DNA of 49,925 bases from the IMG/VR virus record IMGVR_UViG_3300021962_000164, positions 1 through 49,925 of that record, one strand, 5' to 3'. The translations under genes were made by a program, and so were the position numbers. Below the pieces are notes generated by a model. The model had not been told where the DNA came from. It did not search any database and was given only the letters and a program-made list of their open reading frames with translations. This DNA is from a virus. Shown piece by piece: positions 1,746 to 49,014 of this stretch (its first letter is position 1; each line of letters starts with the position of its first letter).

Positions 1746-1753
1746 ATAAATAT
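1746..1753 (-). promoter_or_regulatory. ATATTTAT element
   Basis: The coding strand reads GTGATATTTATATGAGTA, 37 bases before the start at 1708. The flank GATATTTATATGAGTA is nearly the same as in two other copies. Confidence 0.5.
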
Positions 1754-2142
1754 CACCAGCTATACACTTTTACCAAAAATATTTTAACTACTCGAAATCC
1801 ATCTTTGTTTTTGAGAAGTGCACAATTACGGTATCTTTCCCATTCTATCGGATATGTTTTATCTAATACGCCATTGTTTAAGTTCATTATGAGTTCGTTA
1901 AGAGCATTTATGGTGTATATTGTATTTGTTTCACGTTTTTGGTGAACCATTATTGAATTTGGGAGGAATTTTTTGTAACTATCCATTATTACATTATAGG
2001 ACAATAATGAATCTTCTTTGGTTTCCAAAGACTTAAATAAAAATACTTTATTATTTAAAATGGAAAAATTTTCTTTTATGGTATCTATCGTCTCAGCTAC
2101 GCTGTGTTTTCTCGTAAATGTACATACTAATTGTGTCTTCAA
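1753..2142 (-). CDS. Hypothetical phage protein
   Basis: This is a 129-residue protein of unknown function. The middle part (MVHQKRETNTIYTINALNEL) followed by a Trp/Arg-rich stretch (IEWERYRNC) has the feel of a compact folded domain, and I believe similar short proteins occur in other large T4-like phages, but I cannot name a family. It has no membrane segment or signal. An ATATTTAT element lies 35 bases before the ATG, within the short gap after the polymerase-like gene. Confidence 0.6.
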   Translation of the reverse strand: MKTQLVCTFTRKHSVAETIDTIKENFSILNNKVFLFKSLETKEDSLLSYNVIMDSYKKFLPNSIMVHQKRETNTIYTINALNELIMNLNNGVLDKTYPIEWERYRNCALLKNKDGFRVVKIFLVKVYSW

Positions 2143-2177
2143 TATTTCTCTCTCATTTTTTCAAATATCTACTCAAT

Positions 2178-2185
2178 ATAAATAT
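2178..2185 (-). promoter_or_regulatory. ATATTTAT element
   Basis: The coding strand reads GATATTTATATTGAGTA, 35 bases before the start at 2142, in the gap behind the polymerase-like gene. Confidence 0.5.
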
Positions 2186-2189
2186 CATC

Positions 2190-3401
2190 TTAAATTTGCA
2201 GAATACTACCAAAAGTGTCACCCGTATAAATTTTTACTGACATATTATCAGTTTCAAATGCAGACTGTAATACATCTATCAAATCCGTTTCATCTGGATG
2301 AATATCAAAAATGAAAGCATCATAAAGATACATCATAAACACCGACTTCTTATTCTGCAAATGTGGTAATATACTCTTTATCTTACGAACATTATATTCG
2401 GTTTCCAATGATTGAAGAATATAATTGAATACTTTATTTGGTGTAGCGTCTTGAATATCTCTAAATAGTTTTTCATAAAACCAAGATTTAACCACACTAT
2501 CCGTCTGATACCTCTCATATAATTCATCTATGAGTGCTTGAACGGAACGGAAAAATGTATGGTTCATAAACTCTGGAGTTATCATCCCATATATGTTCTG
2601 AAATACTTTACCTTTGAATTGGTCATAGTCCATATCTATTCCCAAATCATTTTGTATTTGTTCGTATGGGTGATATTCAAATTTATAGTCTAATATCTTT
2701 GCCAATAATTTTATATGGAAAGCATCGTAGTCAAACTGAACAATCTTTCCTCCATCAAACCGTGAACGAATTTTATCTCTACTACCATCTTTCTTATTAA
2801 TTGCAGAGAAGTTAAATCCGCTCCAAGCATTACTTGGTCTGCCTGTTGCCGTATACCACATATAATTTTGTTTCTTCCATTCCTCACCAACAAGAATATC
2901 GTTTTTTTCAATCTCATGGAATATGTTTATGAAATCATTGCAATAATCTATACAACTTTGAGTAATTGGATTATCCTCATAAATCTTCATAACATATCTT
3001 GCAATTCTTCTTGCCCATTCCAATTGTTTTGAAAGTGGTATTACTTGACCTAAATCTTCTATCTTGTAAAATTTATTTGCAAGTATTTCCATTCCTTTCG
3101 GATAAAATTCTTTTGGATTGATATGGTCTGATGTATGGTAATGTAGGTATGAATTTATATCAATACCATCGGTCATACCGTTATACACCAATACCTTTTT
3201 ATTGAACACAAGGGTTTTGGGATGTAAACGAATATCGTGTAAACCAATATCACTATGGATTTCATCTGGATGTGTAAAGTTAATATATTGTTCTTCACCA
3301 TCCGTAAAAAGAAAATACATACCGATAACGCCAACTGCAGATTGGTGTTTGTTTGGATTAGTTGTAATTGGAATGCAAACCGAAGGTTTTTCTTGAAACA
3401 T
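2190..3401 (-). CDS. Divergent family-A DNA-polymerase-like protein
   Basis: The 403-residue product carries, in order, diverged versions of the family-A polymerase motifs. TGRPSN at 186-191 and NFSAINK match the TGR...PNLQ region. VQFDYDAFHIKLLAKI (Asp224) matches motif A (DYSQIELR). KGKVFQNIYGM (Lys263 or Lys265, Tyr271-Gly272) matches the O-helix motif B. NYILQSLETE resembles the N-x-P-I-Q-G segment, and YLYDAFIFDIHPDE (Asp361) matches motif C, with HDE changed to YDA. Both metal-binding Asp positions appear kept, while the motif B Arg and motif C His/Glu are not. The N-terminal 110 residues could be a reduced exonuclease-like part, but I see no exonuclease motifs. It lies among baseplate genes, 3 bases after one of them. 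Activity is uncertain; the homology looks real. Confidence 0.72.
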   Translation of the reverse strand: MFQEKPSVCIPITTNPNKHQSAVGVIGMYFLFTDGEEQYINFTHPDEIHSDIGLHDIRLHPKTLVFNKKVLVYNGMTDGIDINSYLHYHTSDHINPKEFYPKGMEILANKFYKIEDLGQVIPLSKQLEWARRIARYVMKIYEDNPITQSCIDYCNDFINIFHEIEKNDILVGEEWKKQNYMWYTATGRPSNAWSGFNFSAINKKDGSRDKIRSRFDGGKIVQFDYDAFHIKLLAKILDYKFEYHPYEQIQNDLGIDMDYDQFKGKVFQNIYGMITPEFMNHTFFRSVQALIDELYERYQTDSVVKSWFYEKLFRDIQDATPNKVFNYILQSLETEYNVRKIKSILPHLQNKKSVFMMYLYDAFIFDIHPDETDLIDVLQSAFETDNMSVKIYTGDTFGSILQI

Positions 3402-3404
3402 AAG

Positions 3405-4079
3405 TTAGACTAATTTTAAAGTAGTATCATAAATTGTAAATTGTCTTGGATTGTTTACTATACTACCAAATATACTAACTTTTTTTGTAATTCGCAAAAT
3501 AATTCTATTATTTGTATCAACAACGCCTGGATTTACTAAATAACCATTACTATCCAATTGATCATACTCTGGACCGTTTATTTTCCAAGGAACATCTATC
3601 ATTTCATATAAATATCGGTTTATACCAGTGTGGTCTCTATAATAGTCTATGGTTTGATTTGGTGATATTTCAACAAAAAATATATTTGGTTCGTTTCTCT
3701 TGTATACAAAGTGTCTTGTCATTTTTCCTTCATTTAATTCGTCTTCTGTTGGTATTCTTACAATAGGAATTGGTTTTGTATACAAATCAAATTTAGCAAG
3801 AGGATTCAGTTTTGGTTTTCTTGTGCCATCTGGATTTTTTGCATAGTTTTTTTGTTGAACATATTTAAAATACGATGGTCCACGATCTTTATATTTAACA
3901 AGTCTTACTGATTTTCTTGGATCCCATTCCGTTTCCGAATATGTTTCTCCCGTAACATATTGGTGGTATGGTCCGATATATTCTTTCCAGTTTTCAAGTA
4001 TCATCCATTCTTTTCCGTTTGTAAAAAGATTAGTTTTAACTTGACTTGGGTGATAATATGTTCTTGATCTAAATGCCAT
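3405..4079 (-). CDS. Baseplate-region structural protein, unknown
   Basis: This 224-residue, Tyr/Pro-rich protein has no family I can name. Its start (MAFRSRTYYHPSQVKTNLFT) and the aromatic-rich body suggest a compact beta-rich virion protein. It starts 2 bases after the stop of the hub protein and is followed by the polymerase-like gene after 3 bases, so it belongs to the baseplate operon and is probably a wedge, hub or tail-associated component. There are no membrane segments or coiled coils. Confidence 0.65.
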   Translation of the reverse strand: MAFRSRTYYHPSQVKTNLFTNGKEWMILENWKEYIGPYHQYVTGETYSETEWDPRKSVRLVKYKDRGPSYFKYVQQKNYAKNPDGTRKPKLNPLAKFDLYTKPIPIVRIPTEDELNEGKMTRHFVYKRNEPNIFFVEISPNQTIDYYRDHTGINRYLYEMIDVPWKINGPEYDQLDSNGYLVNPGVVDTNNRIILRITKKVSIFGSIVNNPRQFTIYDTTLKLV

Positions 4080-4081
4080 TA

Positions 4082-6232
4082 TTATCCACCCATATTAACT
4101 CTTGCTTTTGTATTCAGTGTTGTTGTCCAACCACCTGCATCAATTTTATGACTAACTTTTGTTATAGTAAAACTTACATTCCAAGGAGCTTGATTATATC
4201 TTGCTGGTATCGCCATGCATTCGATAGCATCACCAAACTTAAAACCCATTACACCGTCTATTGTTAGTGTTAAATCTATCGGATAAACCGCTTTATTCAT
4301 CCAATGACCATGACCATTTGCACCACTCATTCCAGTTGATGTTTCTAAACTTTTTTTCCATTTTGTTATCAAACCACGAACTTGCTCACCCCAAGCATTA
4401 TTAAATCCATCCGTTAAAGCGGCAGCATATTTAGCGGTTAGTTCAGTTGCAGCATCTCTTGCATTAACACCCATTGCAGGATCGGGTGTACTTGCTGGGG
4501 TGCCTCCTGATGTTGGTGCGGCTTTAACATCAGAATTTGTTGGTTGAGTGCTTCCTCTATCTTCTCCTCTAGCGGCGGTGTAAGCGGCAGCTGCTGATGC
4601 GGCTGGCGGTTTGCATGTTATAGATGCGGTTCTAACAATAGCACGGTAAATGTCAACTCCAAATTGAAAAGGTCTAACTGTATCAATAATTTCTCTTGCT
4701 AAATTTGTATCTTCTATACTCAATATTGCCTGAGTAGGCGGTGCTGATGCTCCAGTTGCTCCGCCACCAGGAGGAGACATATTTTCGGTTTCATACAATG
4801 TTGGTGTTATTTGATATATGTCACCTGATGCATAATTTATTCTCTTTGATATTGTTTCAAAGAAACTTGTTAAATTTTTATGACTTATATTTGCCGCATT
4901 TTCTGCAACAAATTCTTTATACGTTTTTTTAATAAAATCTGTACCAATTAGTATATTACCTATTGCTATATTATTACCATTTATGACTCCGGGAGGAGAT
5001 ATTTGGTATGCATCTGATCTTAAATAATTTTGTGGAGCGGCAAAAGCAGTTGATCCACCATATTCACCCATTACATCATCTGGAAAAAAAACATCCACAG
5101 GAAATGCAGATTTTATTAATTGATACCATGCTGTAAAATTCCCTTCGACTTGTATTCTAAACAACCTACCCATTGTTGTTGCTGGACCTGCCGCTGCCAG
5201 AGCAGATCCTGCTTCTAATTGATTTATTGCCTTATTGATAAAACCAACCAGTTCATAGTATTTAATATAGTAAAAGGGTTTTTGTATAGGTGGTGGTGGT
5301 GGTGCCGTTGCTATTTGAGCTGCACCTTGGTTGGCAACGGCTGGATCAGTATTTCCTGTTGACTCGGGTTCAACCGGTTGAAATGGTAGACCAAGAGGTT
5401 GATAACCGACCATTCGCATATTAGTTGCCCCCGCAACAATATATCCAGGACTCGTCATTGGTGCTAATGTATATGATGCGGCAAAAGGTCCGCCCGCAGC
5501 CATATCCCTATCTATAACTGCAGCAATATTTGGTCCAGGTAAAGGATTTGCTCCGATAGTTACAGGTGCTGCACCAGGATCGGTTCCAGTATTGACATCA
5601 CCGGACATACCAGTTGATACAGTAGCTGCAGAAACAATAGAACAATCTGCCGTTATAGATAAATCGGGATTTACACTCCAATTAAAATTGTATATTATAC
5701 CGGTAAATCTTCCAGAACATGGACCTGGATTTGCAGCAGCTGTACTCCAACCCCAAGAAACATTTACTTCTGCTCCTGGAGTAAAAAATGCATCTTCTAT
5801 GTTACCAAGTTGAAAACCACTCGTTGTTATACTAGGGTATATGGTAAAAGTAAATTTACCTTTTAGCAAAGATCCCATTGTACCTTCATTACTTATATCC
5901 AAACCTTGCAATAATGGCATATTTGGAACATTTCTTGCAGCACTATACATTGTAAGGTTTCCATCACGATTACTCATAACAGGAGATCTTGCGGATCCTA
6001 AAACAATACCAGTTCTAGTTGACACTATTCTAGCCCAAGATTTTTTTCCATATGCCCAAGTTAAATTTCTAGCCGCATCACCACCTCCAGTACCGGGAGT
6101 TGCTGCCCTAGCACCCCTAACTCTTTGTCCGTGAATTGCTCCTCTTGCATTTAATTCACCGGTTGTGAGTGGATCAGGTGTTCTATAAAATGGGCTTTGA
6201 TATGGTGCCGGTGCTACGCTTGGCCTTGGCAT
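4082..6232 (-). CDS. Baseplate hub protein (gp27 / late-control-D-like)
   Basis: This 716-residue protein looks like a contractile-tail hub. The C-terminal 75 residues contain LTLTIDGVMGFKFGDAIEC followed by WNVSFTITKVSHKI and GGWTTTLNTKARV, the ending seen in many myovirus hub proteins of the gp27/gpD type. The N-terminal 200 residues contain beta-rich segments (KFTFTIYPSITTSGF, EVNVSWGWS) typical of the tube-like hub domains. It is longer than T4 gp27 because of Ala/Pro/Gly-rich linkers near residues 215-320 and 545-600. It is transcribed directly after the LysM/gp53-like gene and before an unknown baseplate-region gene. The hub would join the tail tube to the spike and cell-puncturing device. 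Confidence 0.75.
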   Translation of the reverse strand: MPRPSVAPAPYQSPFYRTPDPLTTGELNARGAIHGQRVRGARAATPGTGGGDAARNLTWAYGKKSWARIVSTRTGIVLGSARSPVMSNRDGNLTMYSAARNVPNMPLLQGLDISNEGTMGSLLKGKFTFTIYPSITTSGFQLGNIEDAFFTPGAEVNVSWGWSTAAANPGPCSGRFTGIIYNFNWSVNPDLSITADCSIVSAATVSTGMSGDVNTGTDPGAAPVTIGANPLPGPNIAAVIDRDMAAGGPFAASYTLAPMTSPGYIVAGATNMRMVGYQPLGLPFQPVEPESTGNTDPAVANQGAAQIATAPPPPPIQKPFYYIKYYELVGFINKAINQLEAGSALAAAGPATTMGRLFRIQVEGNFTAWYQLIKSAFPVDVFFPDDVMGEYGGSTAFAAPQNYLRSDAYQISPPGVINGNNIAIGNILIGTDFIKKTYKEFVAENAANISHKNLTSFFETISKRINYASGDIYQITPTLYETENMSPPGGGATGASAPPTQAILSIEDTNLAREIIDTVRPFQFGVDIYRAIVRTASITCKPPAASAAAAYTAARGEDRGSTQPTNSDVKAAPTSGGTPASTPDPAMGVNARDAATELTAKYAAALTDGFNNAWGEQVRGLITKWKKSLETSTGMSGANGHGHWMNKAVYPIDLTLTIDGVMGFKFGDAIECMAIPARYNQAPWNVSFTITKVSHKIDAGGWTTTLNTKARVNMGG

Positions 6233-6234
6233 AT

Positions 6235-6570
6235 TTATCTCTCATCATTGAATATACGAATAAGTGCTCCGATACCTGAGTATTCAGCATATCTTGGTAT
6301 TCTTACTATCATACCGGCAGGTACGTTTAATGTGCCTCTACCCAAATTATTTGAAATAGCTATAACGTGCCAAAAAGTTTCATCACCATAAAACTCTTTT
6401 GCCAATAAATCAAGTCTATCGCCAGGTTGTGATATAATTATAGTATCGCTTGTAGTGTCTAAATTTGGATAAAATGTTGAAGACAATCTGCTAACTAAAT
6501 GAGTATCACCTTTTGAATCTACTTTTCTAGATCCAGTAACGATAGTACAAACACTATATCTATTTTGCAT
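6235..6570 (-). CDS. gp53: LysM-like baseplate wedge protein (gp53 / tail protein X type)
   Basis: This 111-residue protein has a LysM-like core at about residues 45-95: IISQPGDRLDLLAKEFYGD, then WHVIAISNNLG and VPAGMIVRIPRY. T4 gp53 and phage P2-type tail protein X carry such a fold and sit in the baseplate, here between two large baseplate genes. In T4, gp53 closes the wedge ring around the hub; the same role is inferred. The ATG lies 40 bases after an ATATTTAT element. Whether it is gp53 proper or a tail-X relative cannot be decided by eye. Confidence 0.75.
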   Translation of the reverse strand: MQNRYSVCTIVTGSRKVDSKGDTHLVSRLSSTFYPNLDTTSDTIIISQPGDRLDLLAKEFYGDETFWHVIAISNNLGRGTLNVPAGMIVRIPRYAEYSGIGALIRIFNDER

Positions 6571-6610
6571 TTAGTATTCCAATCGTATGTAGAACAATAA
6601 CCAATCAACT

Positions 6611-6618
6611 ATAAATAT
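6611..6618 (-). promoter_or_regulatory. ATATTTAT element
   Basis: The coding strand reads TTATATTTATAGTTGAT, 40 bases before the LysM baseplate gene. Confidence 0.5.
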
Positions 6619-15563: not shown

Positions 15564-15583
15564 TAGTTTTCCTATTATTTCAT

Positions 15584-15591
15584 ATAAATAT
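15584..15591 (-). promoter_or_regulatory. ATATTTAT element
   Basis: The coding strand reads CATATTTATATGAAATA, 20 bases before the giant baseplate gene. This is the shortest spacing of the likely functional set. Confidence 0.5.
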
Positions 15592-21283: not shown

Positions 21284-21314
21284 TTATTTCTCCAAATTTA
21301 AAATACCTTTAAGT

Positions 21315-21322
21315 ATAAATAT
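21315..21322 (-). promoter_or_regulatory. ATATTTAT element
   Basis: The coding strand reads ACTATATTTATACTTAAAG, 31 bases before the tail tube start and downstream of the sheath terminator, so the tube gene can be transcribed on its own. Confidence 0.55.
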
Positions 21323-23816: not shown

Positions 23817-23853
23817 TTATTATCTCCATAAAATTATAGAATGAAATCTGCAT

Positions 23854-23861
23854 ATAAATAT
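23854..23861 (-). promoter_or_regulatory. ATATTTAT element
   Basis: The coding strand reads ACGATATTTATATGCAGA, 37 bases before the GTG start of the sheath gene. Confidence 0.55.
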
Positions 23862-46827: not shown

Positions 46828-49014
46828 TTATTGTGTTAAAAATAAAGAAGAATTTGTCAGAGTTGATCCCGATGCCCATGTAGTTAATGTTCCTATTTGA
46901 ACGGGTGATGATCTAGTTACAGCGGTTCCATCACCTAATCCACCAAAACTATTAGATCCCCACACCCAAACTGTTCCATCGGTTTTAATTGCTATAGTAT
47001 GGCTAACTCCAGCCTTAACAGATTTCCAATCAGTTAATGCTCCTATTTGAATAGGTGATGATTTAGATACACCGGTTCCATCACCTAATAGACCTTGACC
47101 ATTTTGCCCCCATGCCCAAAGTGTTCCATCTGTTTTAATTGCCATGGTGTAGCTTGAACCCGCTGATACATATTTCCAATTAGTTAATGCTCCTATTTGA
47201 ACAGGTGATGATCTAGCCAGAAGGGTTCCATCACCCAATTGACCAGAACTATTATTTCCCCATGCCCAAAGTGTTCCATCTGTTTTAATTGACATCACAA
47301 AATTTATACCTTGTGATATGTATTTCCAATTCGTAAGAGAACCTATTTGAATAGGCGATGATGTGTTTACAACAGTTCCATCACCTAATCGACCTTGAGT
47401 ATTATTTCCCCATGCCCAAAGTGTTCCATCTGTTTTAATTGCAAAGGTGCGGGATACACCCGGTGATACATCTTGCCAATCAGTTAATGCTCCTATTTGA
47501 ACGGGTGATGATTTAGCCAGAACGGTTCCATCACCCAATTGACCATTACTATTAGTCCCCCATCCCCAAAGTGTTCCATCTGTTTTAATTGCCATAGTAA
47601 CCTGCGATCCACCAGGTATTGAACCCATTGCGATATATTCCCAATTCGTAAGAGAACCTATTTGAATAGGCGATGTTTTAATCACTGTTGTCCCATCTCC
47701 CAATTCACCCTGTGAATTTCTGCCCCATCCCCATAGAGTGCCATCTGTTTTTATGACCATTGAACTATTATCACCAGATCCCATTGAAGATATGGCTGAT
47801 ATATTAGATATTTGTATCGGTGAAGAATATGCATGACATCTTGCCACATTTCTAGTACCGTTTGCAGATCCCCAACTCCATAGAGTTCCATCATTTTTTA
47901 TAGCAATAGAACCATTTGATACTCCCGTTATGCGTAAATTAACTAAATTAACCGCATCATATCCCCAATCAGTTGATGTTCCTAATTGAATAGGTGATGA
48001 TTTAGTTACACCGGTTCCATCACCCAATTGACCTTCACCGTTACTTCCCCATACCCAAAGTGTTCCATCAGTTTTAATTGCCATGGTGTGGTTTGTACCC
48101 GCTGATACATATTTCCAATTAGTTAATGCTCCTATTTGAACAGGTGATGATTTAGCTACATTAGTTCCATCACCCAATGCACCACCAGTATTACCCCCCC
48201 ATGCCCAAAGTGTTCCATCAGTTTTAATTGCCATAGTATGGCCTGAACTTGCATAAACCTGTTGCCAATTAGTTAATGCTCCTATTTGAACGGGTGAATT
48301 TCTTTCCGTTCTTGTTCCATCACCTAATTCACCACTACTATTGTTCCCCCATCCCCAAAGTGTTCCATCTGTTTTAATTGCCGTGGTGTGGTTTCCACCC
48401 GCTGATACATATTCCCAATTAGTTAATGCTCCTATTTGAACGGGTGATGATTTAGCCACATTAGTACCATCACCCAACCAAGTACCTTGCCCCCATGCCC
48501 ATAGAGTTCCATCTGTTTTAATTGCAAAGGTTCGGGATCCACCCGCTGATACATGTTGCCAATCAGTTAATGCTCCTATTTGAACAGGTGATGATTTAGA
48601 TATAACAGTTCCATCACCCAATTGACCATTACTATTAAATCCCCATCCCCAAAGTGTTCCATCTGTTTTAATTGCCATGGTGTGGTTTCCACCCGCTGAT
48701 ACATATTGCCAATCAGTTAATGCTCCTATTTGAACGGGTGATGATTTAGATCCCGTAGTTCCATCACCCAATGAACCAATACTATTTTCTCCCCACCCCC
48801 AAAGTGTTCCATCTGTTTTAATTGCCATGACACGATTACCTTTTGAAGATACTATTGACCAATCAGTAAGTGTACCAACTTGTGCTGGAAGAAAGAGTGT
48901 TTCACCATTAGCCAACTCCCCATGTGAAACTCTACCAGCACCCCACAGATAAGTTTGTGGTGGAACATATGGATTATATGATCTAGAAGCTTGTAGTAAT
49001 ATATTCTTTATCAT
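46828..49014 (-). CDS. RCC1-type double beta-propeller protein
   Basis: The 728-residue protein is almost wholly RCC1-like repeats of about 50 residues: IKTDGTLWGWG, then GQLGDGT, SSPVQIGALTDW and VSAGGNHTMA. I count 13 IKTDGT units plus an N-terminal half unit (YLWGAGRVSHGELANG) that would be closed by the last strands, i.e. 14 blades, enough for two seven-bladed propellers. The central unit (about residues 345-405) is the most diverged and would fall at the boundary. There is no anchor or signal. Next to a collagen-like fibre and a chaperone, it is likely a fibre-tip or adhesin component. AAGG lies 7 bases before the ATG. Confidence 0.88.
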   Translation of the reverse strand: MIKNILLQASRSYNPYVPPQTYLWGAGRVSHGELANGETLFLPAQVGTLTDWSIVSSKGNRVMAIKTDGTLWGWGENSIGSLGDGTTGSKSSPVQIGALTDWQYVSAGGNHTMAIKTDGTLWGWGFNSNGQLGDGTVISKSSPVQIGALTDWQHVSAGGSRTFAIKTDGTLWAWGQGTWLGDGTNVAKSSPVQIGALTNWEYVSAGGNHTTAIKTDGTLWGWGNNSSGELGDGTRTERNSPVQIGALTNWQQVYASSGHTMAIKTDGTLWAWGGNTGGALGDGTNVAKSSPVQIGALTNWKYVSAGTNHTMAIKTDGTLWVWGSNGEGQLGDGTGVTKSSPIQLGTSTDWGYDAVNLVNLRITGVSNGSIAIKNDGTLWSWGSANGTRNVARCHAYSSPIQISNISAISSMGSGDNSSMVIKTDGTLWGWGRNSQGELGDGTTVIKTSPIQIGSLTNWEYIAMGSIPGGSQVTMAIKTDGTLWGWGTNSNGQLGDGTVLAKSSPVQIGALTDWQDVSPGVSRTFAIKTDGTLWAWGNNTQGRLGDGTVVNTSSPIQIGSLTNWKYISQGINFVMSIKTDGTLWAWGNNSSGQLGDGTLLARSSPVQIGALTNWKYVSAGSSYTMAIKTDGTLWAWGQNGQGLLGDGTGVSKSSPIQIGALTDWKSVKAGVSHTIAIKTDGTVWVWGSNSFGGLGDGTAVTRSSPVQIGTLTTWASGSTLTNSSLFLTQ
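46850..48960 (-). repeat. RCC1 repeat tract
   Basis: Thirteen units of about 150 bases encode RCC1-like blades. Several share long identical DNA stretches around the IKTDGTLW and SPVQIGAL codons, so unequal recombination between blades is likely. Confidence 0.85.

Follow-up and report, generated by a model that had tools for sequence, protein, structure and literature searches.

We propose that the 403-residue protein encoded at positions 2190-3401 of the window (the whole 49,925-nt stretch of viral DNA analysed here, IMG/VR record IMGVR_UViG_3300021962_000164) is probably a second, catalytically competent DNA polymerase of the divPolA1 family, which would lack proofreading and be accessory to the main replicase of the phage. 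DivPolA1 was described by Yutin et al. 2024 (Virol J 21:200; PMC11348598) as having a palm with catalytic residues, an inactive exonuclease domain, a regular polymerase alongside it and replication genes downstream; the family criteria also include a truncated thumb. These authors independently judged divPolA1 to be active. In our literature search the name occurred only in that paper and its preprint.

A short branch of the divPolA1 family

2190..3401, minus strand: divPolA1-family DNA polymerase, 403 aa (ORF with ATG start; AlphaFold2 model; KlenTaq match; relatives match PF00476)

Single-sequence searches of Pfam and PHROGs with the window protein alone gave nothing convincing. A tblastn search against phage records identified homologues in Microcystis phage Mel-JY01 (46% identity), in Flavobacterium phage immuto (29%, E 2e-26, 92% of the query; annotated "DNA polymerase family A"), whose protein is a divPolA1 member named in PMC11348598, and in the uncultured phage LR756508. 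At the family level, 38 of 62 members matched PF00476 (DNA_pol_A) at E<=0.01, the immuto homologue matched it above the curated cut-off, and the family profile retrieved Taq and Klenow from the PDB. The window protein is encoded at 63-99% identity by 51 loci in an IMG/VR scan, and a profile search of IMG/VR yielded at least 562 confirmed relatives; the immuto protein as query gave 312 matches, and the LR756508 protein retrieved no further IMG/VR relatives. Because a search of 84,980 cellular genomes found only 9 relatives, each on metagenome-assembled contigs, divPolA1 looks phage-specific. Gene context was analysed in a representative set of 65 loci with <85% identity to one another, and conservation in an alignment (A2) of 61 relatives and the window protein, from which two sequences from annotated records and one further locus (L093) were left out.

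An AlphaFold2 model built from a 62-sequence alignment (pLDDT 94.5, pTM 0.90) had Klenow, KlenTaq and Bst polymerase as its best structural matches (Foldseek, VIA-align). The KlenTaq match (Z 27.9, rmsd 3.6, 338 residues) spanned residues 1-402, so that we are confident of a predicted Klenow/KlenTaq fold over the whole length of the protein. As an indirect answer to the earlier note's question of whether Asp224 and Asp361 meet in the palm, both occupy the positions of the Klenow motif A and motif C strands. Since the fold match begins at residue 1, the N-terminal part is most likely a remnant of the exonuclease domain. Within residues 1-120, D81 was the sole acidic residue conserved at >=90%, consistent with the published loss of exonuclease acids (PMC11348598), and the profile alignment to Pol I started at the palm. 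The earlier note on this DNA had read the protein as a compact family-A polymerase without visible exonuclease motifs and had suggested structure prediction as a check; the model contains the polymerase palm, and conserved exonuclease acids appear to be absent.

Judged by sequence, the window protein forms, together with the Mel-JY01 protein, a new and shorter branch of divPolA1. Its proteins fall ~40 residues short of the immuto divPolA1 members, and the Fig. 4 legend of PMC11348598, which lists 14 genomes, does not include it; a literature search on the Mel-JY01 genome found nothing. The earlier note's remark that no role had been described for such a protein holds for its function but not for the family, which had already been described as divPolA1. 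The likeness to Klenow and KlenTaq extends to the whole-length fold and to motifs A, B and C in order, and Taq has an inactive exonuclease domain, as the window protein probably does. However, the window protein is ~150-200 residues shorter than the Klenow fragment, and it lacks the Pol I 5′ nuclease domain, a separate 5′-3′ exonuclease being encoded a few genes on.

An active site with fixed departures from Klenow

2838..2840, minus strand: Arg188 codon, TGR motif (T186-G187-R188), Klenow Arg668 position; invariant in A2
2730..2732, minus strand: Asp224 codon, motif A (DYDAFHIK) metal-binding Asp, Klenow Asp705 by profile alignment to Pol I; invariant
2715..2717, minus strand: His229 codon, position of the Klenow steric-gate Glu710; His invariant in A2
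2625..2627, minus strand: Tyr259 codon, position of Klenow Arg754 (motif B) by Klenow mapping; Tyr invariant
2613..2615, minus strand: Lys263 codon, Klenow Lys758; invariant
2589..2591, minus strand: Tyr271 codon, Klenow Tyr766; invariant
2319..2321, minus strand: Asp361 codon, motif C metal-binding Asp, Klenow Asp882, with YDA instead of HDE; invariant in A2

Eight Klenow positions were retained in the profile alignment: Asp705 (D224), Asp882 (D361), Arg668 (R188), Lys758 (K263), Phe762 (F267), Tyr766 (Y271), Asn845 (N326) and Gln849 (Q330). Residues invariant in A2 were T186, R188, N191 and N197 on the N-terminal side of motif A; D224, D226, H229, Y259, K263, F267, Y271 and G272 from motif A to motif B; and N326, Q330, E333, T334, Y360 and D361 in the C-terminal part. 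Conservation of the catalytic set held down to members at 23-31% identity. In the wider set D361 was kept in 64 of 65 proteins, the exception being L093, in which motif C reads YTMP and the 3′ end is apparently frame-shifted. Every motif in the order given by the earlier note (TGR, motif A Asp, Lys...YG, N-x-x-x-Q, motif C Asp) was present, and its residues were invariant in A2 apart from the Gly of TGR. The gene appears to be under purifying selection, with dN/dS of 0.08-0.15 between the window gene and 48 close relatives. Together, the predicted fold and this conservation argue for an active enzyme.

The same positions include departures from Klenow that are fixed in the family, namely Glu710 to His229, Arg754 to Tyr259, Ser707 to Asp226 and HDE to YD[A/S]; the change of HDE to YDA and the loss of the motif B Arg had been recognised earlier, and it is Tyr259 that occupies the Arg754 position. 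In Klenow, Glu710 is the steric gate and Arg754 is a dNTP ligand. As both are replaced in every divPolA1 member, nucleotide binding must differ and activity is not a given. The canonical residues of a replicative, proofreading PolA (DxxxxE/RxxxK/HDE) were not found in the window protein. The full-length PolA of immuto-like phages retains DYTSLE, RxxxK, HDQ and an intact exonuclease, and the active-site changes thus belong to divPolA1 and not to the PolA of such phages generally. The published divPolA1 text (PMC11348598) mentions neither these fixed non-canonical residues nor the partner linkage and promoter-like element described below.

Gene neighbourhood and a linked partner gene

6235..6570, minus strand: baseplate wedge-like / Phage_tail_X-like protein, 111 aa (phrog_7145 baseplate wedge subunit, E 4.8e-10)
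4082..6232, minus strand: tail/baseplate-block gene, 716 aa (homologue in 57 of 65 loci)
3405..4079, minus strand: preceding tail/baseplate-block gene, 224 aa (homologue immediately before divPolA1 in 47 of 65 loci)
1753..2142, minus strand: partner gene, 129 aa, TTG start (conserved divPolA1 neighbour; alpha/beta fold predicted, ferredoxin-like in its N-terminal half)

DivPolA1 is placed at the boundary between structural and replication genes. L001, a 99%-identical relative, has the tail/baseplate genes first, then divPolA1, the partner, four further genes, ssb, recA, 5′-3′ exonuclease and dnaB, and the same order was found in Mel-JY01 and immuto, with functions backed by PHROGs on the Mel-JY01 copies. 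The replication genes (ssb, recA, 5′-3′ exonuclease and dnaB-type helicase) share the orientation of divPolA1 in the relatives. Over the 65 loci, the neighbours counted were the partner (63), the tail-block genes (58 and 57), ssb (57), recA (48), the exonuclease (39) and dnaB (24), with the last counts limited by flank length. The earlier note had put the gene inside the baseplate operon, transcribed with tail and not with replication genes. It is instead the last in a run of baseplate genes, the four replication genes follow it in relatives, and its promoter-like element is of the ssb type; the contrary impression came from the window edge, where the sequence stops short of ssb. Read-through from the baseplate genes into divPolA1 may occur in the window across the 3-bp gap that separates it from the preceding tail-block gene.

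Several other genes were noted in and around this region. An alpha/beta-hydrolase-like protein is encoded at 150-794 of the window, between the partner region and ssb. Marine clades have large genes inserted between divPolA1 and the partner (L118:7251-9476, L113:7272-8567, L110:6903-9137), often with a 4-bp overlap with the divPolA1 stop and belonging to no Pfam family. At 46828-49014 of the window, adjoining tail-fibre-like genes, lies a gene for a 728-aa RCC1-type repeat protein (PHROG "regulator of chromosome condensation", E 1e-100).

The partner gene lay 1-3 genes downstream of divPolA1 wherever it was counted in the 65 loci, and in the phage collection it occurred only in the six records with divPolA1. 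A scan with the partner profile added 78 new loci, of which 52 had divPolA1 upstream on the same strand; the other 26 had <=2.85 kb of contig upstream, compared with a spacing of up to 3.8 kb elsewhere, and no counter-example to the linkage was found among the 78. The AlphaFold2 model of the partner (pLDDT 93.3) had no confident solved relative by Foldseek or VIA-align (best Z 6.8, half-length), BFVD gave one sequence-family match, and the partner profile returned only chance-level rows against solved structures, one of them (E 0.2) for a Tc toxin subunit. It is probable that the ~130-aa partner assists divPolA1, either as a subunit or as a DNA/accessory factor, and we infer physical contact between the two. 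It is possible, though we think it rather unlikely, that divPolA1 and the partner depend on each other as the two parts of one polymerase, its nucleotide site altered by the His at the steric gate and the Tyr in place of the dNTP-binding Arg. Such an enzyme would carry out a synthesis step of its own that no main phage replicase provides, such as primer extension that tolerates ribonucleotides or synthesis primed by recombination.

A second polymerase in the same genomes

The search of related phages for a second replicative polymerase, also suggested by the earlier note, was positive: a separate PolB or full-length PolA was found in 13 of 15 divPolA1-carrying records of >=100 kb (G001-G003, G007-G013, G015, G016, Mel-JY01, immuto and LR756508). 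The two records with neither, G003 and G016, are both metagenome contigs and perhaps fragments. Companions were PolA in the immuto clade (full-length, ~780 aa) and PolB elsewhere (~840-900 aa where unbroken). For the window, whose record is a fragment of 49.9 kb, the companion was judged by proxy from relatives; PolB is present in the record of its 90%-identical relative (L003, G004) and also in G001 and G006. PolC was absent from 13 of 14 records, with one match in LR756508. In two records PolB is in two separate frames (L068/L069 in G002, L062/L063 in LR756508), possibly through an insertion or frame change. A DnaG-type Toprim primase (Toprim_2) was encoded in 10 of 14 records tested, so priming is covered; a search for the DnaG zinc ribbon gave weak matches below the cut-off.

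These companions led us to reject the idea that divPolA1 is the split catalytic half of an only replicase. A comparable case is the split T7-like polymerase of Synechococcus phage S-SRP01, whose polymerase ORF is likewise short and contains no exonuclease; there the annotation makes it the polymerase of the phage, a 3′-5′ exonuclease being encoded by another gene, and its match was weak (E 0.05). In barbaviruses, divPolA2 (PMC11348598) also accompanies a regular polymerase as a divergent second one of family A, but by that paper's account its N-terminal domain is different and its gene neighbourhood variable.

Could divPolA1 itself be the main replicative polymerase, with the full-size PolB or PolA as the accessory? 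DivPolA1, not the regular polymerase, heads the conserved ssb-recA-exonuclease-dnaB block, regular polymerases have a less telling gene context (PMC11348598), and divPolA1 stays constant where the regular polymerase changes. However, divPolA1 appears to lack a proofreading domain and has a shortened body, the PolB of Mel-JY01 is placed with clamp-loader genes, and the exonuclease of the companion PolA is intact, and we consider the exchange of roles improbable. The constancy of divPolA1 while the main replicase is PolB in some clades and PolA in others argues instead for a job that the main replicase does not do.

The His that replaces the steric-gate Glu in every member also bears on whether divPolA1 makes or extends RNA, as a primase or an RNA polymerase-like enzyme. 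The superfamily also includes the single-subunit RNA polymerases, and divPolA2 has been suggested as a possible RNA polymerase (PMC11348598). On the other hand, the best structural matches of the model are all DNA polymerases, there is no extra promoter-binding N-terminal domain, and the Toprim primase is already encoded in most records tested. RNA synthesis is therefore an unlikely role, and we rejected the narrower proposal that divPolA1 serves as primase for want of another. A catalytically dead polymerase kept for a structural or regulatory role, as the loss of the Arg754, Glu710 and His881/Glu883 equivalents in all members might suggest, is equally doubtful: both metal-binding Asp residues, Arg188, Lys263, Tyr271 and Gln330 are invariant across very wide divergence, which would be surprising if catalysis had been lost.

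Promoter-like elements

3469..3497, minus strand: TTG-N20-TATATT, promoter-like element before divPolA1, lying within the 3′ end of the gene ahead of it
2177..2184, minus strand: TATTTATA motif, putative late-promoter motif of the phage, 42 bp before the partner gene

Of 63 loci, 29 had an element of the form TTG-N19/20-TANATT before divPolA1, compared with 2.2 expected from shuffles; before ssb the figures were 31 of 57 and 1.6. Such elements were found before tail-block/baseplate genes in 1 of 56 and 0 of 45 cases, before the partner in 3 of 63 and before recA in 0 of 48. This pattern and the one that follows were both partly chosen after some sequences had been seen, so the counts are partly post hoc. 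The second pattern, TATTTAT, has 13 of its 24 copies in the window 20-60 bp before gene starts, a zone equal to 3.4% of the sequence. In Mel-JY01 it occurred solely within the 2.5-62 kb block, where 11 of 21 gaps had it, against 0 of 14. The whole-window count of TATTTATA was unremarkable (13 versus 7.8 expected), and it is position alone that is unusual. When promoter classes were compared by block in the relative G001, intergenic gaps were few.

Other promoter-related observations were made. A ATATTTAT(A) motif lies 27-55 bp before many gene starts on the minus strand (for example at 6610-6617, 15583-15590, 21314-21321 and 23853-23860) and, judged by sequence and position, is probably the late promoter of this phage group. 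The T4 late promoter TATAAATA, considered as a candidate, had one copy only on the coding strand and was rejected; the enrichment is seen for TATTTATA, the reverse complement. In Mel-JY01, TTG-N19/20-TAnATTTG elements (L071, 62.7-98 kb) resemble the Bacteroidota promoter type, yet the host given in the Mel-JY01 record is Microcystis elabens. Its relative immuto infects Flavobacterium, and the host assignment may deserve a check.

The earlier note's suggestion of a polymerase that is produced late, along with the baseplate, and packaged into the virion is very improbable: the 3-bp gap in the window and the late-type motif ahead of the cluster of genes at 6610 would fit, but divPolA1 has its own ssb-type promoter-like element, a hairpin and T-run separate it from the last baseplate gene in immuto-like phages, and replication genes come next after it.

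Proposed function

We thus return to divPolA1 as a probable second polymerase, accessory to the main replicase. Its probably vestigial, inactive 3′-5′ exonuclease domain and shortened build would give synthesis without proofreading, and this template-directed synthesis would take place alongside the main replicase. DivPolA1 would act together with the adjoining ssb, RecA, 5′-3′ exonuclease and helicase. Candidate steps, suggested by the gene neighbourhood, are gap filling, replacement of RNA primers, in which primer ends would be filled after the neighbouring 5′-3′ exonuclease has acted, and extension of recombination intermediates, in which synthesis would proceed on RecA-made intermediates.

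Many large aquatic phages carry divPolA1 besides their main polymerase, and it is a standing question why a large phage should retain two DNA polymerases. Because divPolA1 is common in aquatic metagenomes and stays constant while the main replicase is swapped, it probably does something that the replicase does not. The linked partner and the fixed non-canonical active-site residues reduce the question to a few direct biochemical tests.
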